Below, piece after piece: positions 40,196 through 64,000 of a stretch of 64,000 nt of DNA (its first letter is position 1; the number at the start of each line of letters is the position of its first letter). The stretch spans positions 310,001-374,000 of the forward strand of contig WFMF01000127.1 of NCBI GenBank assembly GCA_011033025.1. The letters run 5' to 3'. The position numbers and the translations under genes are program-made. This DNA is from Beroe forskalii (taxonomy: Eukaryota; Ctenophora; Nuda; Beroida; Beroidae). A model generated the notes under the pieces. It saw only the letters and a program-made list of their open reading frames with translations, was not told the origin of the DNA and did not search any database.

Positions 40196-41473
40196 TAACA
40201 GCCAGTTTTTTTTTTGTTTCAAAACCCCAGAGGGGCACCGCTAAGGGCTTCAAAATATAAGTTATATGAAACAATATAATCATTTACCAAATAGAAACAA
40301 AATATTAAGTCTTCCCCTGCTCATGTCAGGTTAAAATGACTAAAATCGCGAAAACAGTGAGCAGCGCAAAAAACGCCGTGCACGTGGGAATTCGACAGTC
40401 GAAATGCAAGTCCTCCGTAGTCCGTATGGTATTCCTGGATGGCTGTGACGCGAGGAATAGAGAGAATTATGAAACATTGACTTAAACGCATGTCAAGTTG
40501 ACGTCAAAACTTGATGTTGAAGAATGAACTATGAACATTGGCATCATTTCTGACATCACTCGTCTGTATTTGGTAATTGCGTGGCGCCAACAAGATTATG
40601 GGTGCGGGTCACTGAAATTAGGAGAATTTGCCATGTCATCCCATCAAATGTCGCCCTGTTTTCCTAGAATCCTACGTGTCTCTTTTGGAGCGGGCTGCTC
40701 AATGTAAACCCAGCCTCAATTGTCAATACACACTCTCTTATTGCACCTCATCGGAGCAAGATTCCTGATTGTTTGACTTCGGAACAAAGCTTTCTTATAA
40801 TTCGAAGACTGTTAGGAGTCACCAGCAGGCTTTCCAATCCACATGTCCCACTGAAAGTAGATCGGAAGCTATTCGTCACTGATTAACTACTCTAATTCCT
40901 GATAATTACGTCACTTCAAACCGCCCATTTGTTGGGAAAGTTCTGCTTGTGCGGAGTGGCAACATGGACCAATGTCCGTCTAGATTGCTTCGCACAGCTG
41001 CAATTCCCCTTCTAAGTTTTATAATGGCATTGTGATTGCAATCGCTTCGTTAATCCTCATGGCGTTGCGACGCCAGGATTGATTGGGGTTATTATAGGTG
41101 GTCACCTTTTATTTCATTTATTTTGTCTCATTCGCAGTTTTATCGAAGGGTCGTGTTTTATTTGCAGTGAGTGTCCAAGCGTTACTTATCTTGCTGCTTG
41201 GAGATTGAAATATTGTCCTTCTCTATAATTTTATCGATAGCTATTTTCTTGCTTTAATTTCAGAGTTTCAGTATGCGGATTACGTATAACTCATGCGGAT
41301 TATAACTTCATTTCTTTACGTTCTCACTCGAATTCTCGAATGAAAAGCACCCTCAATTACCTTTGATACGAACAAATTACTGAATGCCCCATCTAAATTT
41401 CCAATATTAATCCTGATAGTTGGCGTTGATATTGAAATATTTGATATAAAATTCCCAATTTGAGTGACTACGA

Positions 41474-43749
41474 ATGTTGCTCACTGCTACTTTGTTGGCT
41501 TTGTAAGTATATCACAAAATTCATTAAAATATTTTTACTGATTGCCATCGATATACACCAAATATTCCCTTATTCCCTCTAATTATTCTTCATCATTCCC
41601 AGATTGCCAGCTCCAGGCTAATTCCCCCTACCCCCAGATTGCCAGCTCCCTTATTCCCGCAGCTCCCTAATTCCCCTCCCCCCAGATTTCCAACTCCCTA
41701 ATTTCCCCTTCCCTCAGATTACCAGCTCCTTATTCCACCTAATAAAGTAATTCCCCCCCCAGATTGCCGGCTCTTTAATTCCCCCAGCTCTTTGATTCCC
41801 CAGCTCCCTAATTCCCTCTCCCCTCCCAGATTGCTAGCCTTCTAATCCCCCTCCCCCAGATTGCTAGCTCCTAATCCCCCAACTCCCTAATCCCCCAACT
41901 CCCTAATCCCCCAACTCCCTAATCCCCCAACTCTCTAATCCCCCCAACTCCCTAACCCCCCTCCCCCAGATTGCCAGCGGTAGTCCTCTCCGGACAGCAC
42001 ACTCCCGCAGGATGGGCCTGTGCTCCGCTCACCGTGATCGAGTCATCCCACGAGGATTGTCTGGGTTCCGCTACCCTCAGCGGAGGAACCTGGTCCGTCA
42101 GCACCAAGAAGGTAAGGGGTTGTGACGTCATTGTCAGGGGTTAGAGTGGGGGAGTTGATGACGTCATTATCAGGGGTTAGAGTGGGGAGTTGATGACGTC
42201 ATTATCATGGTTTATTTTCAAATAATATTTTCAAATAATATTTTCAAATAATATTTTCAAATAATATTTTCAAATAATATTTTGAAATAATATTTTGAAA
42301 TAATATTTTGAAACAATATTTTCAAATAACATTTAAAATGATATCAAGCACATCTCTTTTTCAGGTTGATGGAGGTATCAACCGGTTCTGTGTAGTCACA
42401 CTTTCTGGTGTGGGTATCAAGGAAAACCAAGACTTCTACGTCAAGGGAACCTTTACCACCTCCGAAAACATTGGACCTTACGGGGGTATCTCCTTCAATA
42501 TGGAGGATGCTGATAATGGCAACTACGTCATGATGAGGTATGCAATTAGTGCTAATTAGATCTCATGATGAGGTATGAAATTAGTGCTAATTAGATCTCA
42601 TGATGAGGTATTTTTATCTACATACTACAGTACAGAAGTGCTGCAATATGACCAACTATGTCTCTATAATTAATGATTCCAATTAGCTCTGGAAATTGAT
42701 TTGAAATTTTCGGAGTGATTCTCATTTCGGAACTCATTTTAGCACCTGTGTTACAACGATTAAATCTCAATAATGGGAAGAATTAGCGGTTCACGAAGTT
42801 GTTTATGAAGTTTTGACATTGAACCGCCTATTTTTCTTAAGCGGCGTTTAAAGTCCACGCACGAGAAAAAGACGGTTCAACGTCATCATCTCACTACATC
42901 ATGATATGATCATGACGTCATCCTACCCGCCTATTTTTCTTACGCGGCGTTTAATATAATATGTATTTGATGCTTCTCAGGTTGAAGAACACCGGTGCTT
43001 CCAACGTTGAGACTGGACGACTCATCAACAAGTTCAAGTCCCAGTCGGAAGCCAAGACTTCATCCAAGGCAAACGCAGCCGTGGCCTCAGGGTCAGCTAA
43101 CTCTGGGTGAGTTGAATATATTGATTGGAAAGGATATCGGAGGGAATATTAAGCTATCTTTTTTCGAAAGTAATCGAAACAAACAATACTTTGGCAGGAC
43201 ATAATTGAAAATGAGTTTCCTCGTCTAGAAGGCATTATTAGATCAAATAATAAAAATGGGTCGTCTGAAATTGATTATAATGACCCCTGTTCTGACCCCC
43301 TGCTAACCCCCATTACTGACCCCCTGCTATTTTCATATCCCCTATTATTAGGTCATATAATAACAGCCATATTCCCCTCAGAAATCCTTGTAAACGAAGG
43401 AGAGGAGTCTGTTTATATCAACGGAGTTCTGCAGACCGACATTTCCGGATACCAGCCTTTCTACGTACAGCCTGGTTAGTAGAAAAGTTGCAAAAACTGT
43501 CCGTAAAATATTGATATAAAATGAGCTTTTGTCTTAGTTTTGGAAAATAACATGATACTTCACAATTTTTCATTTCTTCGCTGTACACTTAAAAAGTCGT
43601 ATCTTTTAAAAAAATTAAAATTTGTTTTTTATTTATCATTTTTAGGTGCGGTCGGGTTCGCTTTCCAGAACGCAAAGGACTGGGGACTGAAGGTGTCCGG
43701 AGCTGAAGTGTGCTCGTATTGTGTGGGAGCCAACGGCAACAAATACATG
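41474..43749 (+). CDS. Module 1 of the secreted protein: signal peptide and LamG-like region (exons 1-6)
   Basis: Exon 1 codes MLLTATLLA and joins exon 2 at LLPAVVLSGQHTPAGWACAP, a typical signal peptide with likely cleavage near VLSGQ. Exons 3-6 code FYVKGTFTTSENIGPYGGIS, FNMEDADNGNYVMMR and, later, GAVGFAFQNAKDWGLKVSG, resembling the jelly-roll (LamG/ConA-like) fold in which a GGI/GIVF strand is followed by DxxNYYxxR and a GxVGF strand. It ends in VCSYCVGANGNKYM, starting the Cys-rich part. Exon 4 (42981-43106) ends in phase 2 while exon 5 (43382-43474) needs phase 1. All other joints are consistent, so a one-base error, an unusual splice or a real frameshift lies there. Confidence 0.75.
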
Positions 43750-46700
43750 GTAAGATTTTAATTCTGTTTCCAATTGATGGGACAAGTAAGCAATAATACT
43801 GGACAGGAAAACCACGGCAGTATCGTATTTTTTGCCGTATATTTTCCTAAAAAATACGTATTTTTACAACATTGGTCTCAGATCGGTGAATCGTACACTG
43901 ACGGTCTCCAGACCTGTACCTGCGACGCTGCAGGAGGCATGTCTTGCAAATGTGGAGCTACTCTTACCTGTCCTGCTGGACAGTCAGTCTGGACTGATCA
44001 GGAGACGTGCGAGTCCAAGTGCATCAGACGTGAGTTAAACGCAAGGAAATATTCTTTTATTTACTTTTTATCACTAGGAGGATTGCGGGTTGCGTGTTTA
44101 AGTGTATCAGAAGTAAGTTAATTTGATTTTATTTCGCGTAAAATCATTACGCGCGCATTTCGCGCGCGCTGCAGTCTCTTTCACTGCGTTGGACCAAATG
44201 TGAAACACAAGGAAACATTTTGTATTTTTCCCTAGATATCCTTTGATTTCAGCCCCGGCGTACTGCATCAGCTCTGGTGATCCCCATTACAAATCATTTG
44301 ATGGAAAGTACTTTGATTTCCATGGACAATGTACCTACCAGGCTGCTAGCTGTGACGACTTCAAGGTACGCAATTCATTCCCCGCGCATGATATAATGAA
44401 CTTGTTGAGATATATTTGGAAAATGTCTAACCAAATATCGAGGAATTTATCTCTTCCGTTCAACAAATTTTCCTCAAATCCCGCTTATTTCTCTCTAATA
44501 ATCCCACTAACTTCTCCCAAATCCCACTAATATCCTCCAAATCCCTGCAGGTGTTCTTCAAGAACATTGACCGACACAACAGAGCACCCCGGTACACCTA
44601 CCGTATTGAGCTGGAGTTTGAAGGGAGTGTCTTCAGCATCGCTGCAGGATACCAAGCTCATGTAGATGGAGCTGCAGTCCAGGTATGAATATTTAGCTCA
44701 ATTTCTGGTGGAAGCTGAATTTCAGGTGAGTTTTTGGTGAAATTTAAATCCGGTAGGTAACATTTTATCCCCTACCATCTTATCCCCTACCACCTGATCC
44801 CCTAACATTTTATCCTCTAAGTATAACATGTTATCCCCCATGGCCGTTTTGACAAAAATCTTGTGGCATCTGCAAGATCTGTGCATCGAGAAACACAATT
44901 TGTATAGAAATTTTATTGCAAAGTGGCGACTAAAATTCACCGAAACTTGCACTTCTCCCAGGTTCCGTACATCAATCTTCACTAAAACGTGCACTTCTCC
45001 CAAGGTTCCATACATCAAGCACTACGTCAACGGAGACAGAGTTGAAATCATCAACAACGGACAGCTGGAAATCAGACTGTACAGCAAGGGACGAGAGCCT
45101 TCCGTAAGACTGAGGGCTACCAACGGAGGGTTCTACATCAACGCAGGTACTGTCACTGGTCAAAACAAGTGATGTTGCTTTTTTGACACTTTGAAGCTTA
45201 GAAGACCATCCTAGTCAAAGAATAATTTATAAATCACTTCACTCTGGTACTACTTCACTCTACATCAACTGACTCTGACACCACTTCACCCTGACACCAC
45301 TCTGACACCACTTCACTCTGACACCACTTCACCCTGACACCACTTCACCCTGACACCACTTCACTCTGACACCACTTCACCCTGACACCACTTCACCCTG
45401 ACACCACTACTCTGACACCACTTCACCCTGACACCACTTCACCTTGACACCACTTCACTCTGACACCACTCCACTCCACCTAACTCTGACACCATTTCAC
45501 TCTGACACCAATTCACTCTGACACCACTTTTTGATACCACTTCACCCTGACACCACTTCACTCTGACATCACTTTTTGACACCACTTCACCCTGACACCA
45601 CTTCACTCTGACACCACTTGACTTTTCACAACGCAGAGATGTGGCTGCATGGATCCTGTGCGGACATCACTGAGGGACTTTGCGGTAACTGGAATGGAAA
45701 TGCTGGGGATGAGTTCATGCCAACAAATAACATCAACAGCTGGGGAGACAGCTACAAGCAGGTCCTTATTATTAATTTTTTTTTATTATAATTTTTTTTT
45801 ATTATAATTTTTTTTATTATAAATAGTCAGGGGGTTTATTCCTAAACGGAACTTAGGTCAATAATATGCCCTTGGCTGAGAGTATTGTGACACCTTATAT
45901 TTCATATGATTTATATTTATTGCTTGAAATGTGATTAAATGTAAGTTTCTTGTCTGTAAAAGTTTCTTGACCACAGTACGACGAGCATTGCCCTGCTCCC
46001 CCCGAGCCATGGGATCCCTGCAAGGATATCAGCGAAACTGCCAGGGCTGAAGCTATGGAACTTTGCTCACCTATGCTAAGTAAGTTGGCAAGTTGCCCAG
46101 CAGAACCCCTTTTGCTCACCTATGCTAAGTAAGACCCTTGTTTCTACCTTCTACATCCTGTTTTATCATGAACCCTTTAACCCTATAAAATATTGCGAAA
46201 GCAGAAGCTATGGTTCCTGCTCTCCTAACATCGGAACTTATAAGAGCATTTTATATTATCAAAGAGAAACGCAGAGCTTTCATCTAAGCAGACAGAACAT
46301 CAATGGTGAAGCCCGGAAACGTTTTGAGCACTTCGTGCCCCTAGGAAACCGCCAATTAAACCATTGATTTATTATCGCAGATTTCAAGAACCCTCGGTTT
46401 AAAATACAGTAGGAATTAATGTTTCCTCCCTCCTTCAGAGGCTCCATTTGCGGCCTGTAACGGAGTCGTGGATCCTGGTAACGAGAAGGAAGGTATCATG
46501 AACCAGTGTGCAACTGATGTCTGTAACTGCTTCATTGACGAGGTATGTATAATTTTAGAACTTAGAATTGTAATTCTGAAATTAAGAAATTTCAAAACAA
46601 GTAACCACGACATGTTAATTGCAGCGAATTTTCATCATACCATATCATGCATATGACATCATTTCGAATTTTCGAATAATACATCGGCGCATTCAAATCT

Positions 46701-49700
46701 TTTTTTGCAATTTTATAATTTTGTATCTGCTACTTATCCCTATTTCTTTCAGAGTTGTGCTTGCTCCCAATTCGACGTGTACGCTTCTTCTTGTATTAAC
46801 AATGGAATTGACTTGGCTAACTGGCGTGAGAGTGTCGCGTTTTGCCGTAAGTTATCGAAATAATCACTTTTTGTCCTGTCGTTGATCATGTATTGAACAG
46901 CCTAACACTTTTTTCATATATACATTTAAAGTCACTGCCACCGCGAGCTTTGTTTCTTTAAATAACGCACGCATTTCGTGCGTTATTTTCAAATAATCAC
47001 GAGCTCAATGACCGCTCTGCTACAATTTGAGTAAAATGACCACTCGCCTACTACAATCTAAGTGAAAATTAGATTAAAAAAAGAAAAACCAAACAAAAAA
47101 CTAACGCTCCCTCTCTTCTGCAGCGTACGAATGCCCTGAAGGACAGGTCTACAACGCTAAGGGCCCTACTCCCGTCCCCACCTGTCTGGAAAGGTAGGAC
47201 CTTATTCATAGTAATGTATCTGATTTTCTCGTCACCAGCTGCCATCCACTTGACACGGTCTACCCTCCAAACTCCCCTATTATTTGCTTGTAATGAATGA
47301 CCCCTTAACCCGATAACCCTAGAAACTGATTATACATCCAAGATAAAGATTTATCTTATAAAACAACCCACAGGAACCCGACCCCCACTGGAACAGTTCG
47401 TGGTTGTTTCTGTCCCAACGGACAGTTCCTACAGGACGGTGTCTGTGTGGGAGCTAACCAGTGCAAGTGTCTCTACGAGGGAGTCTTCTATAACGTGAGT
47501 ACTTTATGTATTTGTATTTTTTTGTTATTTTTGGTATTTTCTATATTTGGTATTTTCTATATTTTGTATTTTCTGTATTGATATTTTCTATATTTGGTAT
47601 TTTCTATATTTGGTATTTTCTATGTTAGGTATTTTCTATATTTGATGTTTTCTATATTTGATGTTTTCTATATGTGATGTTTTCTATATTTTGTATTTTC
47701 TGTATTGATATTTTCTATATTTGGTATTTTCTATATTTGGTATTTTCTATGTTAGGTGTTTTCTATATTTGGTATTTTCTATAACGTGAGTATTTTCAAT
47801 GTTTAGTATTTTCTATGTTTGGTATTTTATATATTTGGTGGAAGATTTAACTAAACTTGGTGGAAGATTTTTAAATTATTCCTTACTTTATCTAAAATTG
47901 AACAAAATTTTTAGTTTGAGTTTGAAAAACGTATGTGTTTGTGTTAAAACGTGCACTTGTGTTGAAATGTTGAAGGCATTCAGAAACTTAGAATTATTCT
48001 GCAAATCGTCGCATTACTCGTAGTGTTTATGATTGCAGATCATTCGAAGATACCTCAATTCTATCCTTGTTTAAATAATGCTGCATTAAAACTGACCTAA
48101 CTTGACATTTTACGGATCGAAAAGCTAGAATTTAAGAATATTGAACCGTGAATGCTAGTTACTGCAATTGCTGATTTGCAGTACTAAAGAAGAAGTAACT
48201 GAAAATCAGAATCTACCATGACCAATTCTAATTTCTGAAATTCCTCACAGGATTATTTTCCCTTAGAAGAGGCAAACCATCCGAAAAAATGCATATTATT
48301 TCATTAATTTCCAATAATTACCCGGTTTATTTCCTCAGAACGGACAAACCATCCGGAAGGATGCTGAATGTGAGGAATGCGTATGCAAGGATGGAGGTGA
48401 GATGACCTGCTCACCATTCGAGTGTCCTGCTCTGAACTGTGCTAGTGATGAACTGGAGGCTCAGGAAGCTGATGAGTGCTGTCCTAAGTGTCTCGCTGGA
48501 TGGGTCGAGGTACGTGACAATATTCGATTTTCAGAGTTGCTAAATACGTACTTTTTAAAAATAATTTCCCGCAGGCCTTCAGTTTTGTTTCTTTTCTCAC
48601 AATTTCTCTCTTTTTCCCAGTCTCTGATTGGCTGATTTGGTGTCGGTTTTTTCTCACAATTTCTCTCTTTTCCCCAGGCCCTGAACCCTGAAGTGACAGT
48701 GAAGCAAGGACAGAACATTGAGTTGACGTGCTCTGTCAAAGTGGACGGAGTGATGAAGGATGATATCAAGTGGTATAAGGATGGAGAGGAAATTACCAAG
48801 GGAATCTCCAAGGACAAGTGGGTATTATTGCGCGCTCATTCCAAAGATATATCCGTTTAAAAGTGAAAAAAAAACTATAATTTGCACCTTTCGTTTGAGA
48901 ATTTATGACACTTCTGAGCTGCGGGTGGGTGACGATTCCCCTATTTTTGTCCTCAATAAATCATCCCCCAAACTTGTCCTGAAAGTGAAGAAGTCCGAGG
49001 TTGACGATGACGGAACCTACACCTGTGAAGCCACCAAGGGTGACGTAACAGCTAGTGATGATTTTGATGTGACGGTGGTGGGCCCTAAGATCTGTGAGCA
49101 TGAGGATGGGACAACGTGGGAGGAGGGAGAGGAGTACAAACCAACTGAGGTATTATTAAAAAAAGAATGAGGTAGGGAAACTAGGTTCTAAATTGACAGA
49201 AGTTAGTGCCACCGGTTGCTCTGATTCATTTCAGAAATACGAAGCTTCATCCTTCATACATTTCTCCAACATTGTCTTACCATTTCTAGAAAATTCTGAA
49301 ATTTTCTAACAACTCTGACATATTTTCTAACATTTCCTAACATTAGTTAACATCTCCCCACTCCCTGCAGACCGTGGTATGCACATGTGACCAAACCGGA
49401 GAGCACGAATGCCAATGTGCTGATGATGGTGAGGAATGTGAGGACCCTAACCCCGTCGCTTGGTTCAATGACGAGTGTGTCAAGACTTGCGTTCCTGAAC
49501 CCGGTCTATGTTCCGCTGCAGGTAACAATTCGAGTTTTATTAAATTTATAATACTACCCGAGAGTTATGATTTCTCACCGATTTTATCCAATTTCAAAGT
49601 TCTTATGGGTGCCCCACCGTGGTTTTATACAAACAAACAAATTTCCCATTGACGCCATTTATCATTTATACCACCGACACCTTTTGTCATTTGCAGCTGA

Positions 49701-52700
49701 TCCGTTCTACGTTACATTCGATGGGTCTGAATTCGAATTCAAGGGTGACTGTAAGTACAACTTCTTCAACTGCGATGAGATAAAGATGTACGCTGATCAT
49801 GAGAAGGATAAGGCTAGCAGCAAGACAAAGTCTATCGATGTGAGTTGACATCTTTTTATCATTTATTTATTTAGTCTTTTTTTATAATTTTCATCGATTT
49901 TTAACTTTTCAGCCTGATTGTCTTGACCCCTTGATTCAAGGAATATTCTTGGAAGTTCAAACACCAGGAGAGATATATTATTTCGATTCTGTTGAAAATT
50001 CCTGTAATTATTACCAATTTATAACTTCCTTTCCGTAGATTCTCTTCAAGACCGATACTTTCGTTATGGACGGTGGTAAAGTAACTCTGAACGGAGCCAC
50101 AATAACCGTGCCCATGCACAAGACTTACGGGGATGGTGCCAAACTCTCCGTTGAGAATCTCGGTGTGTAAAAATTCCCTGGAATGTGATGAGAATCAAAT
50201 GCAAAGAATTCTATTAATTCTTATTTTCGCCGAACTCCTACGTGAGCTGCGCACGATTACGCCGCGCACGAAAAATCCGTAGGAGTTTGACGCGCCACCG
50301 TTAGAATGTGAGAATTTGGAAAGGAGAGACCCTTACTAACGTTTATTAACAAAGTAAATATATTCCAGGAAACAAGTACGTGCTTAAGATCGTCCACGAC
50401 GGAAAGGACCCTATGATAGAGTTGGAATGGAACAAGGTGTCCGCCTACTCCGTCACAGCTCACGGAACCTGCAAGGGATTCTCCGGTGGAATGTGTGGAT
50501 CGTGGGATGATAATAAGAAGAATGATTTCACTGGACCTGATGGAAAGGTCCTCAAGACGTGAGTATAAAACTTAGGTCTCGATTTTCTGAGGAATTGCCT
50601 GAACTAAACCCAATTCTCAGCTTTAAACAGAAATTTCTGCAGTCTAGATAGTCATTATCACGCACCATTTAACCATGAATTCGAAGTCCTCTGCTTCTCT
50701 TAAAATAATTCTCTCCTCTCAAGACTGCTGAAGAGTTCGGAACTGCCTGGGCTGTTGACGACGAAGCTGACTGCCCTGAACCTCCCCCACCTGAGGATGT
50801 CTGTACAGACTTCGGACTGGAGGCAGACAAACCAGGATATGTCAAATATGTGGAGGATGTCCTCGGAGGTACGCGGATTATTGATATATCAAAGGAAGTT
50901 GGTTTGCCGTTTGAAGATTTGAAAAAGTGAACAGCGAAACAATAAAATTGTCCAAATATAACACTCACAATTTCGCGTCCACATAAATTCATATTTTGAA
51001 TCCTCGGAGCTAAACCGTTCAAGAACTGCGACGGAAAAGTCGACATGGCTGGTCGAGTTGAGGAGATAGTTCAGAATATCTGCAACTGTTTGGGAGATTT
51101 GGGTTGTGCTTGTGATATGTTCGATCAGATTGCTAAGGAGTGCACTGCTAAAGGGAGTAACGCTGAGGGATGGGAGAACAAGAACAAGGAACATTCGTGC
51201 AGTGAGTGCTAAGTATATTACCAGGGTTGATTATAAATTATTTCCTTGAGATTTACCACGAAGAATATGCAATTTATATTCCCTGAATTTGCAATTAATA
51301 TTGCCTGAATTTGCAGTTTTCCTATGAAAGTATATCCCCTGACCATATAATCCTACCTCAGAGCCGCAGTGTCCCGATGGATCCAACTACCAGACCGGAC
51401 CTAAACCCGTACCGTCGTGCGGTAACCCAGACGGAGGTGGCAAGACCCAGACCGCCTGCTTCTGTCCTGAAGGACAGGTAATGTGAACAATTCATTAGTT
51501 GCTTGCGCTATGATGAATACATGGAGGGGAATATTATCTCGCCTAACGCCTTGTGGACGTTGGAGAATCATCGTTTTTCAGCAATTTGATTAGAGAATTG
51601 CCCTACATCCTGTGTTCAATGTATCAGAACGATATTCGAACAAAATTGCTTCGCTTCACTCGTCTGTTAGTTTTAATAAGATGATCTCTGACAGGTCCTC
51701 GAGGATGAGAAGTGTGTGGATGTTGGGGAGTGTGGCTGCGAGTACGGTGGCAAGCTCTTCGAGGTGAGCAGCAATATGATTCTACGACGGAAGTTCGAAC
51801 TTAATGAGCAGTTCTGACTTCCGTCGCCAAAAATTATAGAAATGTTCCAACGACGGAAGGAAGTTCGACTTACCCTTCCACTTGTTGTTCACTTTTTACT
51901 TATAGCTACTGTTTTACATAATATTCTTAACATACTTTTTCTTCGCTTTTTAATTACTTTCTCAACCTTTTTACTTTCATGGAAGTCTGACATTACATGT
52001 TGTAACTTGACTCGATATTATATTTCTATTTTCTTAACCTTGTCTGCTCCAGATTGGAGCTAAGTTTGACAAGCCCGAGGAGTGCCTGTCATGTAGGTGC
52101 AAGGATGACGGAGAAGACTGCGAGGAAATCACTTGCAAAACCAAGTGCAAGGATGTGAGTTCTTCCAATTAGATATTTCATTGACAAATTGTATTGATTA
52201 TATCAATTGGCTCATCTTGAATTTTTGGATTCATCAGTACGCCTACTAAGAATCCTAAGGCCTCTCATACAATATTTTTTCGCCTAATAGATTCCTTTGC
52301 TCATATTTCCCTTCCCTAGGATCACGAAATGTATCCAATCAGCGAACGAGTTTGCCGTCAACTCGCTCGCTGATTGGCCAATGTCAAATGGACCTATGGG
52401 TAAACTAACATGCTGTCCCCAGGATGAGATTGAAGTGGATGTGGAAGGTGAATGCTGCCCCGAATGTCTGGCTGACTGGGTGGAGGCTGTTAACCCTGAT
52501 GCTGAGGGAGAGCAAGGAGAGCCTCTTGAACTGACGTGTAAGGTGGAAGGTGTGGATGTAGCTGCTGGGGATGTCACATGGTGAGATATTTTATATTCTA
52601 CCTTAGTACACGAAATTAAGTAAGCAGAAAATTAAGCACTCCAGCCGCCAAAAATGCTTAATTTGATGTAACTTAGTAATGTGCTTTCTTAATTAATTGG

Positions 52701-55700
52701 TCCGACATTATATGCGTTCTTAATTTAGTTCAGAATCAAATCAAAATTTGCGATAATCAAGCAAGGAAAAACTGATGCAGAAGTAATACACCTGATATCG
52801 ATTATATTAAGGATATTCAGCTTGCTTCATCACTTACTGTAATATCGTGATAGTCGAAATCTCAAAGAATTTTGCTTAGCCTCTAGATCTGAACAAATCT
52901 TCTATGTTTTCTGAGCAAAAGGAATTTTCGGCATATTTTCCAAGTTCTCCTGCAAAAATATTCCTACCAGTACCATAGATATTGCAGATGCTTAAGTAGA
53001 TGTAACGCTTAAGTAAGCTCAAGCCCTTACACGCACGACCAATCTCCAAGTCTTTTGGTTTCTTGGAAACAGAAGAAGCAAGGAAGATAATAATCAATGG
53101 GTGAAAGGAAGCTGGTATTCTCAGAGCGATTCAGGAGTGTAGAAATCCATCAGTTGACCACTGACCAGCTACTAGATCCGTTCTCAAAAATTCAAATTTG
53201 TGATTAAAGACGCCCAATGGATCGTTGATATTTACTTAATGACAAAATTTGGTCACTTAAATGAAAATGGTCTCATTCTTGCTGCCGAAATTTAACTCGA
53301 ATAAAATAATTAGGTGCAGGAAATTAAGAAAGCATTAAATTAAGTAGCATAAAATTAAGCACTGAGGTCACAAAAAATGCTTAATTTGGTGCTGCGTAAT
53401 ATTGTGCCTTCTTAATTTTCGGAGTTCTTAATTTCCTGTACTAAGGTAGTTAAAATCAATAACAAGATTAATGAATAATTAGGACTTTCTTGTTTTGTTT
53501 ACAACTTTTTCGTTTTGTCCCTCACGCACCCTCTAAAAACCATGGCAGTTCTCGTCCCATTTTCCTGGCTGATTTTCCTCTCCGTGAATTCATTAAACCG
53601 TCTCCGTGAATTCATTAAAAAACCGTCCCTCCTCCCACAGTGAGAAGGTCAAATTGAACAATTAATTACCTAATCAAAAGTTCCCACGGTATCAGAGCCG
53701 CGCGCGCGATCCGACAACTTTGTCACATAATTTGTTCCGCGCCCGACGCAAATGTTCCGAAATTTCGAAATGTCCCAAATTTTGGCAAGTTGAGTGGTCA
53801 TATAAATGACCCAATTAAATGGCCATTTGATTAACCCAATTACCTCCAGGATTCGAAACCCTGGCAACGAAGACGTTACCAACGTAAAGAAACAGTACAC
53901 GGTCTCCGGGGATGGACTTACTCTTACCATCAAGAAGATGGATGCTAAACGTACCGGTAATTGCGATCAGATTCCAACCTATTTGAAAGGGACATGTTTT
54001 TGTATTTTAATCACGTATTCAACTTCTTACTTCAGCATCACCGCTTGATGTTGATTTAATCGACTCAGATTTTTGGAATGAAGTGGAAATCAGGAAATGA
54101 AACTTCACACATGTATTTGATTCAAAACTTACTTGTAACAGCGTTTTAGCTTACCCATAGGTTCATTTGGCATTGACCAATCAGGGCGCGAGTTAACAGT
54201 CAACTCGCGCCATGATTGGCCGTCCTAACAACCCCCTATCTTGACAGGAGAGTACAAGTGTGTGGTAACTAAGGACGGCAAGTCCTCTGAAGACATTGAC
54301 CAATCAGGGCGCGAGTTGACTTTAAACTAGCGCTCTGATTGGTCAATATCTGAGTTTACAATGTCCTATCTTTTCAGGAGAGTACAAGTGTGTGGTTACT
54401 AAGGACGGCAAGTCGTCAGAAGGTGTGTTCGACGTGACTCTACCGCCTGTAGAGGAGGATCTTATTGAGGCTGTAGAGAAGAAGATAGACTTCACTGCTG
54501 GACAAGCCATCAAGGCAGAGGTGAGGGGATATTAGATTTTATAGATAGACTTCACTGCTGGACAAGCCATCAAGGCAGAGGTGAGAGGGGAAAATTAGAT
54601 CTCGTTACATGAGCAATCAAAGCAGAGATGGGGGGATATTAGATTTAATGAGAACGGCACAGTTGTAGAATTTGGAAGCAATGGAAGAATGAAAGGACCG
54701 CTTGTTTCTTGAATATTTGTACTTTTTCTCTGCCACTTTAAATATTTTCAAATTTTCGTCTGTCACTCTCAATAACAATCTGATAATTATTTCAGTGCAA
54801 GATCCTTGCTCCAGTTACCGAGATCACATGGAAATGCAACGGAAAGACGATGAAGTCTAAAGGCAACGTCAATATTGTTGTCAAAAGTGAGTCCTGATTT
54901 GGAATTGTCCTGATTTGGAATTGTGCCAAAAGTAGCCGACTTGTACCCCTCTATCGATAACCAATGGGCTCATTATTAGAAAGATAATCACTAAGTGATC
55001 TTTATAAATGCTTATGTCAATTTGATAAGTTCCAAATTGTGAGAAAATATGAGTTCTAATTTATTTCATTTTTCCATTTTCCTCAGAGTCTCTCACCAGA
55101 CTGGTAATTGATCCCGCTTCTACTGACGATGCCGGAACTTGCGAGTGTTCGGCTAAGGGAACTGGAACAGAAGATTCAGATGAAATCGAAATCTCTGGTG
55201 AAGAGAGCGATTCATATCTTCTGTCAATTTGCATTGCAATTGTAACTCAAATTGTTGTAACTTCCGATTGGTCCATTTATGAATTTACCATTTCTTCAAG
55301 TTTTAAGTTTCCACAATTCCATCTAAATTTTCTGATCCAATTATTCCTTGGCACTCCTCCAACTTTACCCATCTTCAGAGAGTGAGGTTATCTTCACTCC
55401 TGTAAACGACCCCGTGGAGTGCATGGAGAAGACGAAGAAGAGCTGCTTCTTGGAGTGGAAGATCGAGGATACTTCTGGAAATGTTAGTCACACCATTGCA
55501 TTTTTTGATTCATTCGAGTATGACACCAGCATAAATTTTATTAGCATTTTCTTCCCTTCTGCATGGCTCCCTGCAATACTCTTTCCACTCCTTTCAGTTC
55601 CTTTATATCTCTCCTTTACCCTCGATTTGACCACTGTCATATCTTCAGAAAATCAAGGACAACGACGTAGCAATCTGCAAGTGGAATAACGGCAAGACCA

Positions 55701-56774
55701 GCGGCTGCAAGACCAGCAAGCTGAAGGGAGACAAGTATCAGAGGAAGTTCGGAAAGAAGAGGAAGGTCGCAATGAGCGGGCAATACGTGTAAGTTTAATA
55801 ACAACTTGGCTATTGATTTATTTGCCAATAGGTGTAAGTAAAAGCTATTGATTAAGTGGCCGATGGGTGTAAATTTGGATAAAAAATGCTGTTGATTTGG
55901 TGCATGTTATTCTGCTATCGCGGTATAAGCGGATCCAATTTAGCCTCTTTCCCACTTTAGACTTTAGTCAGCATGTTTCGTGACCGGTGACCAAATAAGG
56001 CAAACTCTTGCTTGTTTGGAGCCCTTGTGGTACGTTCTGCACATATTCCTAGACGTAACGGTGGCGTGTCCAACTCATATGTGCGCGGATTATTCTTGAA
56101 CGGCGTGATCATGCACGGCTCACTGGCAATAAATGACAGGCAGAGAGACGCGCACGATTACGCCGCGCATGAAAAAGCCCCGCACGAAGTATTTCGACAA
56201 GCCCCTGTAATATCTAACTGCTGAACAGGGGCAGAACTGTCAAATCGCAACGTCGAATAATTGTATTTGTTGCATCTTGAGTCGTGTGCCAATTGACAGG
56301 CTGACCATGACACGTATCTGTGCGTACATGACACTGATTTTATAGACTTCAGGTATATAATCATCACGTTCATGTACACGAATCGTGCGACTTAGAAATT
56401 TCACAATTTTTCTCCTCTCCCGATGTCTTCACAGTGGCTTGATGCATGACCTATCATTGTGGTGGGACGCTAATTATGAATTTCCAGAAACTATAAAACG
56501 CCTTGTGGATCTATATGCTGAAGCTGTGCATGTGCTGCAAAAGTTTCCTTGTAATAAGTTTCCTGTAACTATATGTTTGCAATACAGTGCTGTGTTTACG
56601 AAGGACGGTGAAGAGATTGTCTCTGATCCCATCGATCTTCTCGTGGTGAAGAACCCAGACAAGGGAAAAGGCAAGGAAGACAAGGGAGACAAGAAGGATA
56701 AGGAGGACAAGGGAGATAAGAAAGACAAAGGTGATAAGAAAGACAAAGGCGATAAGAAGAAAAACAAGGATTAA
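41474..56774 (+). CDS. Secreted multidomain protein with LamG-like, VWD-C8-TIL-VWC and Ig domains, 36 exons
   Basis: Exons: 41474-41502, 41970-42111, 42365-42537, 42981-43106, 43382-43474, 43646-43749, 43882-44029, 44253-44365, 44551-44682, 45005-45146, 45637-45761, 45977-46079, 46439-46542, 46753-46846, 47124-47193, 47374-47494, 48339-48509, 48678-48817, 48900-49149, 49371-49521, 49697-49839, 50039-50162, 50369-50547 (or 50558), 50724-50868, 51010-51201, 51362-51477, 51695-51763, 52053-52154, 52423-52580, 53850-53956, 54378-54520, 54796-54886, 55087-55197, 55379-55482, 55649-55788, 56588-56774. About 1545 residues. Phases agree at all but two joints: 43106/43382 is off by one, and 50547/50724 works only with a weak donor. 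The two VWD units suggest a gel-forming or matrix protein, and the Ig domains protein binding in the extracellular matrix. VWD-Ig proteins of this mix are not standard vertebrate mucins. The module entries below give the detail. Confidence 0.9.
41590..41980 (+). repeat. Array of tandem 3' splice acceptor copies
   Basis: The true acceptor of exon 2 is CCCCCAG/ATTGCCAGC at 41963-41978. The 370 bp upstream contain about eight more copies or near copies of CCCAGATTGCCAGCTCCCTA, e.g. at about 41602, 41636, 41685, 41718, 41760, 41827 and 41866, with CTCCCTAATCCCCCAA filler. Confidence 0.85.
42214..42336. repeat. 13-bp intronic minisatellite
   Basis: About nine copies of CAAATAATATTTT (with CAAATA/GAAATA variants), ending about 29 bp before the acceptor of exon 42365-42537. 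Confidence 0.9.
42778..42952. mobile_element. Pair of MITE-like inverted repeats, TGACGTCA family
   Basis: Left copy AATTAGCGGTTCACGAAG...TTGAACCGCCTATTTTTCTT and right copy GAAAAAGACGGTTCAACGTC...ATGACGTCATCCTACCCGCC share GCGGCGTTTA at 42841 and 42944. They end 29 bp before exon 42981-43106. Confidence 0.65.
43882..48509 (+). CDS. Module 2 of the secreted protein: first Cys-rich, VWD, C8, TIL and VWC unit (exons 7-17)
   Basis: Exon 7 is a Cys-rich linker (TCTCDAAGGMSCKCGATLTC). The VWD domain starts CISSGDPHYKSFDGKYFDFH, runs through GQCTYQAASCDDFK, and ends with the diagnostic CADITEGLCGNWNGNAGDEF (45637-45761). C8 follows in exons 12-14 (WDPCKDISETARAEAMELCS; CATDVCNCFIDE; SCACSQFDVYASSCINNGID). 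TIL is in exons 15-16 (CPEGQVYNAKGPTPVPTC; GCFCPNGQFLQDGVCVGANQ). The VWC-like exon 17 has ECEECVCKDGGEMTCSPFEC and ends ECCPKCLAGWVE. These units form disulfide-linked polymers in von Willebrand factor, mucins and otogelin-like proteins; polymerisation here is inferred. Confidence 0.9.
45238..45622. repeat. 16-bp intronic minisatellite
   Basis: About 23 copies of CACTCTGACACCACTT, with CACCCTGACACCACTT variants, filling the intron before exon 45637-45761. Confidence 0.95.
47515..47845. repeat. 16-bp intronic minisatellite containing a copied donor site
   Basis: About 18 copies of GGTATTTTCTATATTT. One copy at 47773-47792 reads TTTTCTATAACGTGAGTATT, matching the exon 16 donor (TCTTCTATAAC/GTGAGTAC at 47484-47501). 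Confidence 0.85.
48678..49149 (+). CDS. Module 3 of the secreted protein: first Ig domain (exons 18-19)
   Basis: An I-set-like Ig domain: VTVKQGQNIELTCSV (B-strand Cys), IKWYKDGEEI (C-strand Trp), then VLKVKKSEVDDDGTYTCEAT (F strand with D.G.Y.C). The two exons split the domain between the C and E strands, the usual place for an Ig intron. The exon 19 acceptor (CGTTTGAG/A) is unusual in ending GAG but keeps the domain intact. Confidence 0.85.
49371..52580 (+). CDS. Module 4 of the secreted protein: second VWD, C8, TIL and VWC unit (exons 20-29)
   Basis: Exon 20 is Cys-rich (CTCDQTGEHECQCADDGEEC). The second VWD reads DPFYVTFDGSEFEFKGDCKY, then GMCGSWDDNKKNDFTGPDGK in place of GLCGNxNGxxxDDF. 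C8 is CNCLGDLGCACDMFDQIAKE, TIL is CPDGSNYQTGPKPVPSC..ACFCPEGQVLEDEKCVDVGEC, and VWC-like is CLSCRCKDDGEDCEEITC then ECCPECLADWVEAVNPD, which leads straight into the second Ig domain as ECCPKCLAGWVEALNP does into the first. The two units have the same order and boundary wording, so they arose by internal duplication. Confidence 0.88.
50226..50306. mobile_element. MITE-like inverted repeat, GCGCACGATTAC family
   Basis: CGAACTCCTACGTGAGCTGC, GCACGATTACGCCGCGCACG, AAAAATCCGTAGGAGTTTGA, CGCGCCACCGTTA. The inverted pair AACTCCTACG/CGTAGGAGTT frames the core. Intronic, 60 bp before exon 50369. Confidence 0.65.
52329..52384. mobile_element. Short inverted repeat, CCAATCAG/CGCGAG family
   Basis: ATGTATCCAATCAGCGAACG, AGTTTGCCGTCAACTCGCTC, GCTGATTGGCCAATGT. 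A hairpin ending 39 bp before exon 52423-52580. Confidence 0.7.
52423..56774 (+). CDS. Module 5 of the secreted protein: further Ig domains and Lys/Asp tail (exons 29-36)
   Basis: Ig 2 (exons 29-31): GEPLELTCKVEGVDVAAGDV, TWIRNPG, MDAKRTGEYKCVVTKDG. Ig 3 (exons 31-33): KIDFTAGQAIKAECKILAP, ITWKCNGKTMKSKGNV, STDDAGTCECSAKGTG. A more divergent Ig-like part (exons 34-36): VECMEKTKKSCFLEWKIED, SGQYVAVFTKDGEEIVSDPI. The C-terminus is a charged repeat of DKGDKKDKGDKK type ending KKNKD and TAA at 56774. The first ATG-initiated frame listed at 56385 is not the exon start; the exon begins at the acceptor at 56587 (TTTGCAATACAG). Confidence 0.85.
54170..54421. repeat. Tandem duplication of hairpin, acceptor and exon start
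   Basis: Two units of about 120 bp: each has a CATTGACCAATCAGGGCGCG hairpin (54170-54221; 54292-54349), then CCTATCTT..CAG/GAGAGTACAAG and GTGTGGTTACTAAGGACGGC. The second is the exon used (54378-54520). The first copy (acceptor at about 54247) reads into the second hairpin and has no usable donor. Confidence 0.9.
56045..56215. mobile_element. MITE-like element, GCGCACGATTAC family
   Basis: Starts TAACGGTGGCGTGTCCAACT, core GACGCGCACGATTACGCCGC then GCATGAAAAAGCCCCGCACG, ends GACAAGCCCCTGTAATATC. The longest copy seen. In the last intron of the secreted-protein gene. Confidence 0.65.
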
Positions 56775-62544: not shown

Positions 62545-63540
62545 CATAGGTCAGGAGAGGTTAACCAAGGGGTCAGGAGAGGTTAACCAAGGGGCAAGGG
62601 ATCAGGAGAGGTCAACCAAGGGGTCAGGAGAGGTTAACCAAGGGGTCAGGAGAGGTTAACCAAGGGGTCAGGAGAGGTCAACCAAGGGGCAAGGGATCAG
62701 GAGAGGTCAACCAAGGGGTCAGGAGAGGTCAACCAAGGGGTCAGGAGAGGTCAACCAAGGGATCAGGAGAGGTTAACCAAGGGATCAGGAGAGGTCAACC
62801 AAGGGGTCAGGAGAGGTCAACCAAGGGGTCAGGAGAGGTCAACCAAGGGGTCAGGAGAGGTCAACCAAGGGGTCAGGAGAGGTCAACCAAGGGGTCAGGA
62901 GAGGTCAACCAAGGGGTCAGGAGAGGTCAACCAAGGGATCAAGAGAGGTTAACCAAGGGGTCAGGAGTGGTTATTGGTTAACCAAGGGATCAAGAGAGGT
63001 TAACCAAGGGGTCAGGAGAGGTCAACCAAGGGGCAAGGGATCAGGAGAGGTCAACCAAGGGGTCAGTAGAGGTCAACCAAGGGGCAAGGGGTCAGGAGAG
63101 GTTAACCAAGGGGTCAGGAGAGGTCAACCAAGGGATCAGGATAGGTCAACCAAGGGGTCAGGAGAGGTCAACCAAGGGGTCAGGAGAGGTTAACCAAGGG
63201 GCAAGGGATCAGGAGAGGTCAACCAAGGGGTCAGGAGAGGTCAACCAAGGGGTCAGGAGAGGTTAACCAAGGGGTCAGGAGAGGTCAACCAAGGGGTCAG
63301 GAGAGGTTAACCAAGGGGTCAGGAGAGGTCAACCAAGGGGTCAGGAGAGGTCAACCAAGGGGTCAGGAGAGGTTAACCAAGGGGTCAGGAGAGGTCAACC
63401 AAGGGGTCAGGAGAGGTCAACCAAGGGATCAGGAGAGGTCAACCAAGGGATCAAGAGAGGTTAACCAAGGGGTCAGGAGTGGTTATTGGTTAACCAAGGG
63501 ATCAAGAGAGGTTAACCAAGGGGTCAGGAGAGGTTCATCA
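62545..63540. repeat. 1-kb minisatellite, unit 22 bp
   Basis: About 43 copies of GGTCAGGAGAGGTCAACCAAG and one base, with C/T at GGT(C/T)AACC and GGTCAGG/GATCAGG variants, and an inserted GGGGCAAGGGATCAG form recurring about six times. A longer variant block, GGTCAGGAGTGGTTATTGGT then TAACCAAGGGATCAAGAGAG, occurs twice (about 62955 and 63470). Confidence 0.95.
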
Positions 63541-64000
63541 GGGGTCAGTAGAGGGTTGCCAGGAGTCAGAGAGTCATTTGTACACTTTCATAGGACCAAA
63601 ATAAGTTTTTGCTCCAGTTTTTCCTTCAATATGTTTGAAAACATCTGTAAATTTCGCCGGATTGTCCACTTATTGACTCCCTACTACGTTTTATGAGACC
63701 CGTACTATATATAGTACATCATTTTTGAAATGATGTCCTTTATATAGTACAGCTAACGGTATATTTCAAATAACGTCCTATATATAGTACGGGCCGCCGC
63801 GCACGTGCAGAAGATGGTTGGGGCTCAAAACTTTCCTCAAACCTTAGTTAGGGTTATACTAGTCTTCAGACAAAAAATCAGCTCAAAAGATTGACGTTTT
63901 CGCGGGGGGGGATCAGGGACTAAGTGCAAGACACGAGGCCGGGGTGGGTGGTGTTTGGCGCTTGGCGAAATCACTTAGTCCACTGTACTAACTGAGGTGG

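Follow-up and report, generated by a model that had tools for sequence, protein, structure and literature searches.

Why does the acceptor of exon 2 in this predicted gene recur in the intron that it closes, and which of the copies would be joined to exon 1? In the window (the whole 64-kb stretch of DNA analyzed), positions 41565-41976 of the plus strand could be tiled by 16 units, namely eight long units of 30-45 bp, three short units of 16-17 bp with CAG, and five short units of 15-17 bp with CAA, the unit borders being our own cut. The sequence-only reading had placed about nine tandem copies, about eight of them upstream, at 41590-41980. Unit tiling, copy matches, and shuffles confirmed the array there, but its limits differed, and the copies numbered eight in all, with seven upstream of the exon edge. 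The ends of the long units resembled CAG/ATTGCCAGC or CAG/ATTNCC (the slash marks the splice junction) and comprised seven upstream decoys and the exon-2 edge. With up to two mismatches allowed in 12 positions, CAGATTGCCAGC had eight plus-strand matches in the array, at 41600, 41635, 41683, 41715, 41760, 41827, 41857, and 41967, and an extra match with two mismatches and without an AG was located at 41538. Outside the array, the rest of the 64-kb window contained two such matches on the plus strand and one on the minus strand. When the region 41560-41978 was shuffled 2000 times with its dinucleotides preserved, the mean number of CAGATTGCCAGC-type copies was 0.03 and the maximum was 1, compared with the eight real copies. 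The exact 16-mer CCCCCAGATTGCCAGC occurred twice in the 216-Mb assembly, both times inside the array, and by this genome-wide search for exact matches we rejected dispersed repeat DNA as an explanation of the array.

The array also contained 13 branchpoint-like CTRAY motifs (shuffle mean 1.9, maximum 8), of which 12 were CTAAT and one was CTAAC (41952), with a single motif per unit in 13 of the 16 units. CTAAY was present in all eight long units and CTRAY in five short units. The presence of CTAAY in every long unit indicated that the duplicated item was a whole 3' splice site together with 8-9 exon bases, and the description of the copies in the sequence-only reading as acceptors, each with its own pyrimidine tract and AG, was borne out by the sequence. 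The array thus consisted of head-to-tail units of 15-45 bp across 41565-41976, within the range of approximately 10-60 bp that defines a minisatellite, and the periods detected inside it by TRF were 16-32. The CAG/ATTGCCAGC-like edge was found in eight units, the last of which formed the predicted exon edge, as in a tandem duplication that crosses an exon boundary. On the minus strand, the array showed three stretches of repeated G runs, which may help explain its instability. The 16-bp units at 41870-41961 contained CCCTAA, the complement of the animal telomere hexamer; this likeness to telomeres is probably due to chance.

The gene models were predictions of a small custom gene finder whose training set was 264 kb of this genome, with a donor cut-off of 2.0; a first version over-predicted (3709 exons in the last round) and was discarded for a stricter version. 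For the focal gene, two chains of exons were predicted, 40531-50562 and 51045-56774; they were taken as one gene because the prediction for a paralog spans both. In the Pfam comparison, the product of the first chain had VWD, C8, VWC, and Ig V-set domains above the cut-off, and its N-terminal 157 amino acids showed no family match. The first exon of the gene finder (40531-40601) was disbelieved, and 41474-41502 on the plus strand was taken as exon 1 in line with the sequence-only reading, from its sequence and its in-frame join. This proposed exon carries an ATG and the first half of a signal peptide, ends in phase 2, and has the donor TTT/GTAAGT. Joined to 41970, it reads MLLTATLLALLPAVVLSGQ... 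in frame, which is plausible as a signal peptide when judged by eye. Because the donor score (1.91) was just below the cut-off and the gene finder preferred a different first exon, exon 1 itself is a proposal. Exon 2 (41970-42111, plus strand, 142 nt) was identified both from the sequence and by the gene finder, and the exonic portion of the repeat corresponds to the first 8-9 nt of this exon, ATTGCCAGC. The predicted models had the acceptor at 41970 and no exon within the array, from which the upstream junctions hit stops. Farther downstream, exons 4 and 5 were out of phase (43106 to 43382), for which a micro-exon, an odd donor, or an error in the sequence may be responsible.

To compare the candidate acceptors, we used the genome's own matrix, derived from 163 predicted sites with the real site included. 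The decoys on the plus strand were CAG/ATTGCCAGC at 41600-41611 (score 6.97) and at 41635-41646 (8.63), CAGATTTCCAAC at 41683-41694 (9.43), CAGATTACCAGC at 41715-41726 (9.11), CAGATTGCCGGC at 41760-41771 (6.39), and CAGATTGCTAGC at 41827-41838 (8.32) and at 41857-41868 (9.26), all seven of which led to a stop. The CAG of the last copy (41967-41969, plus strand) had the top score of the array, 9.71, and is the probable functional acceptor; it was also the choice of the gene finder, and CTAAC was found approximately 14 nt upstream of it. Five of the seven decoys were at least at the 92nd percentile of the 163 predicted acceptors, and since these five score nearly as high as the real site, it is plausible that decoys compete with it. 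All 17 AGs of the array upstream of 41969 reached a stop when joined to exon 1, and 41969 was the only junction that kept the frame of exon 2; the two AGs downstream of 41969 were open through exon 2 in the wrong frame. The earlier claim that the last copy alone joins the signal-peptide exon agreed with the sequence, and the suggestion that use of the upstream copies could add residues or stops was supported as to stops but not as to residues. The 17 stops in 17 junctions were unremarkable and were rejected as a signal in themselves, because 342 of the 369 positions in this TAA-rich array would likewise give a stop.

The nearest AG upstream of the real one was 102 nt away, the sixth longest such spacing among 151 predicted acceptors (median 26). 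According to the lists of AG and CTRAY motifs, this AG-free zone (41868-41967, plus strand) was made up of five short CAA units and the intronic portion of the last long unit, and included six CTAAY motifs. Under the scanning model of AG choice, as set out in the available part of the source (PMC1431707), a branchpoint inside the AG-free zone would direct splicing to the real AG. The length of this zone could have been selected and need not be incidental.

A paralog of the focal gene, 51% identical over 683 aligned positions, was found on contig C345, and it bears on where exon 2 begins. The exon-2 edge of the paralog was, by eye, approximately 40 nt further 3' than 41970 and in a different phase, and it matched 42011. 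If exon 2 of the focal gene started at 42011 (CGCAG/GATGG), the array would be an intronic minisatellite with strong cryptic acceptors. We regard this start as unlikely. The paralog acceptor TTTTCAG/AGGGCTGG is at the matching place and phase, as judged by eye, and the site at 42011 scored 6.03, compared with a median of 6.00 for the 163 predicted acceptors; however, 41969 scored 9.71, the in-frame LPAVVLSGQ right after 41969 completes the signal peptide with exon 1, and the phase of exon 1 does not fit 42011. In approximately 600 nt upstream of exon 2 of this distant paralog, no array was seen by eye.

The paralog had a separate acceptor array (L022, C345:158001-168000), at about C345:159364-158996 on the minus strand, in which a 92-bp unit consisted of an acceptor and approximately 71 nt of exon. 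There were three near-identical copies, the exon edge included, and one decayed copy. The gene finder read the 92-bp copies as 36-nt exons, and for this reason the array was absent from the hits of the edge test described below. On that prediction, these copies could be nascent intron or exon gain. The window exon at 48339, which is homologous to the exon of the 92-bp array, had a single decayed copy 74 bp upstream.

Other splice edges of the window were also duplicated. The donor of exon 3 was found in tandem 35-bp copies of TCATGATGAG/GTATG (42528-42611, plus strand, 2.4 periods by TRF, and an offset of 35 in the edge test); by eye, the edge ATGATGAG/GTAT formed three GT edges at a spacing of 35 bp, the last copy being partial. 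The second copy of this donor, if used, would add an in-frame stop, as judged by eye. The acceptor of the exon starting at 45005 had a 42-bp tandem copy upstream (44936-45018, plus strand, TRF and edge test). Both edges of the exon at 54378-54520 were copied according to the edge test (54235-54586, plus strand), with the acceptor and exon bases recurring 130 bp upstream and the donor and exon bases 60 bp downstream. At 54170-54370, a gaccaatcagggcgcgagtt-type sequence, each time with an inverted partner, immediately preceded either copy of the duplicated acceptor, and it is possibly a small mobile element. At 46059-46133, the donor edge TTTGCTCACCTATGCTAA/GTAAG (donor at 46079) recurred 47 bp downstream by eye; this copy was left out of the counts since it misses the span rule by one base. 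A 22-bp minisatellite of approximately 43 copies was present at 62549-63554. Outside the window, two open frames of 1815 amino acids with closely similar starts were observed approximately 7 kb apart on the minus strand of contig C167 (at ~223192 and ~230070, L008-L009). Contig C1134 (L027) encoded a divergent COX1, confirmed by PDB comparison, in which TGA codes for tryptophan, and a tRNA was absent from the 2.8 kb examined; we take these COX1 features to be reminiscent of ctenophore mitochondria.

How common copied splice edges are was examined in a sample of 264 kb on two contigs, in which a near copy of each predicted edge was sought in its own intron within 600 bp. In the main edge test, a local alignment was required to span the junction. 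A near copy in the adjacent intron was found for 13 of 144 donors and 10 of 151 acceptors, and in the intronic control windows for 135 of 2626 (donor test) and 157 of 2623 (acceptor test). With a larger control, 23 of 295 edges (7.8%) had a copy, compared with 1051 of 17535 intronic windows (6.0%; Fisher p=0.215). In an ungapped version, copies were detected at 9 of 146 donor and 7 of 154 acceptor edges and in 4.1-4.2% of 4620 intronic windows. In the sampled part of the genome, splice edges were thus copied about as often as intronic sequence, the edge rate being slightly but not significantly above the intronic rate; a modest real excess is possible. Eight of the 23 copied edges belonged to the focal gene, with the focal acceptor not counted. 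For the focal gene itself, where a hand-corrected exon list was used, a copy was present at 9 of 70 edges and in 103 of 1008 intronic windows; the 70 include approximately 10 borders that are off by at least one base or doubtful (43647, 43883, 48818, 48977, 50559, 50723, 50869, 52144, 52424, and 56589). By a stricter rule, the focal acceptor had six extra copies rather than seven, the most of all edges tested (the next had three), and at least five extra copies were found for 1 of 295 edges and 11 of 1756 intronic windows. In the exonic control the frequency was higher still (191 of 1546), probably due to repetitive coding and transposon-like open reading frames among the predicted exons, and with a control that was both contaminated and higher the proposal that exons purge such duplications was not upheld.

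The copies retained AG in 10 of 10 acceptors, the focal one included (control, 388 of 480), and GT in 11 of 13 donors (control, 484 of 571). There was no sign that decoys were visibly purged, and a weak hint that they were perhaps kept. On this basis one could propose that this genome freely duplicates splice edges into the adjacent introns (approximately 8% of the sampled predicted edges), the copies mostly keeping AG or GT, that a sizeable share of sites therefore face near-identical decoys, and that the eight-copy array is an extreme case, a length-dependent brake on a secreted VWD protein; we consider this whole chain unlikely. Also unlikely is a ladder of poison acceptors under selection, in which decoys would divert transcripts to stop-containing mRNA and the copy number would tune the dose of the secreted protein. 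The five decoys at or above the 92nd percentile, the stops behind all 17 upstream AGs, and the AG kept in all ten acceptor copies speak for such a ladder, but a stop is expected anyway at 342 of the 369 array positions, edges are duplicated at the intronic background, and the approximately 600 nt upstream of exon 2 of the paralog had no array by eye. The sequence gave no good reason to see splice edges as favored for duplication, or decoys as selected. That repeat mis-assembly added or collapsed copies is very improbable: tandem C-rich arrays are hard to assemble and a single assembly was used, but the copies differ from one another, their unit lengths vary, and TRF reported numerous further arrays across the window (79 rows, with some overlap), although the exact copy number in the assembly may be wrong.

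We consider it likely that a tandem duplication across the boundary of intron 1 and exon 2 seeded the array as an intronic minisatellite, and that the decoys of the array are neutral. The array is most likely an extreme yet ordinary product of local DNA duplication. The founding duplication would have crossed the boundary with its right breakpoint 8-9 nt inside exon 2, so that each long unit would carry the whole 3' splice site, that is, the CTAAY branchpoint-like motif, the C/T tract, the CAG, and the first exon bases. Subsequent slippage or unequal exchange would have generated the eight long units and the 15-17-bp derivatives; the unit structure was consistent with the earlier suggestion of slippage or tandem duplication at the boundary. 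Since the exon-proximal copy alone keeps the frame, that copy would be maintained by selection, and use of an upstream decoy would yield a truncated and probably decayed mRNA. The real AG is probably favored by its closeness to exon 2 and the donor of that exon, and probably also by the AG-free stretch with its six branchpoint-like motifs, from which scanning would reach the real AG first. The order of the duplications, the AG used, the decay of wrong products, and the neutrality of the decoys are what we infer from these data.

The eight near-identical acceptors differ mainly in their distance from the donor and from the exon, and they form a natural ladder for 3' splice site choice in which closeness to the exon, the AG-free zone, and scanning can be set against one another. 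If the array is neutral, as we believe, its value is that of a test system rather than a new mechanism. The copying of sampled edges at about the intronic rate points to local duplication as a regular source of decoys and of material for shifted borders and gained introns. We make no claim that acceptor arrays are unreported, the literature search having been partial on subscription journals.

Among known systems, the human ABCA7 VNTR in intron 18 is similar in that an intronic minisatellite adjoins an exon and has a splice site in its unit. In the available part of that report (PMC5954066), the 25-bp unit begins with two bases that are described as a splice donor site, and use of such a donor retains one unit and shifts the frame. 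The ABCA7 VNTR is, on the same partial source, a length-polymorphic donor array of 25-bp units with RNA evidence, whereas the present acceptor array is known from sequence; its units, of which 11 of 16 have CAG and the other five CAA, also differ from those of ABCA7, as described there, in containing a branchpoint-like motif and exon bases. A tandem duplication that crosses an intron-exon boundary is also described for potato RdRp in the accessible text (PMC4974935), where the putative branch site, polypyrimidine tract, 3' splice site, and exon bases at intron 1/exon 2 were copied. As far as that text goes, the potato gene has two copies and a new intron made through a cryptic donor recruited from exon sequence; unlike it, the present array comprises eight copies that include just 8-9 exon bases, and its sequence gave no indication of a new intron. 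The Drosophila cases, in which novel intron positions arose by sliding or tandem duplication (PMC2891723, seen in part), share with the array a tandem duplication near splice motifs, there as a source of altered intron positions; the part available describes duplication of coding sequence with proto-splice sites, and no acceptor arrays among those cases. As in NAGNAG and other tandem acceptors, several AGs near one exon edge could compete. CAGs 8 nt apart also occur within array units, and another CAG 8 nt past the real acceptor would shift the frame if used. Whereas the AGs of the NAGNAG class are 2-12 nt apart in the descriptions available, the eight CAG/ATT acceptors of the array are spaced 30-110 nt apart, each with its own pyrimidine tract and branchpoint-like motif, and the upstream ones lead to stops.
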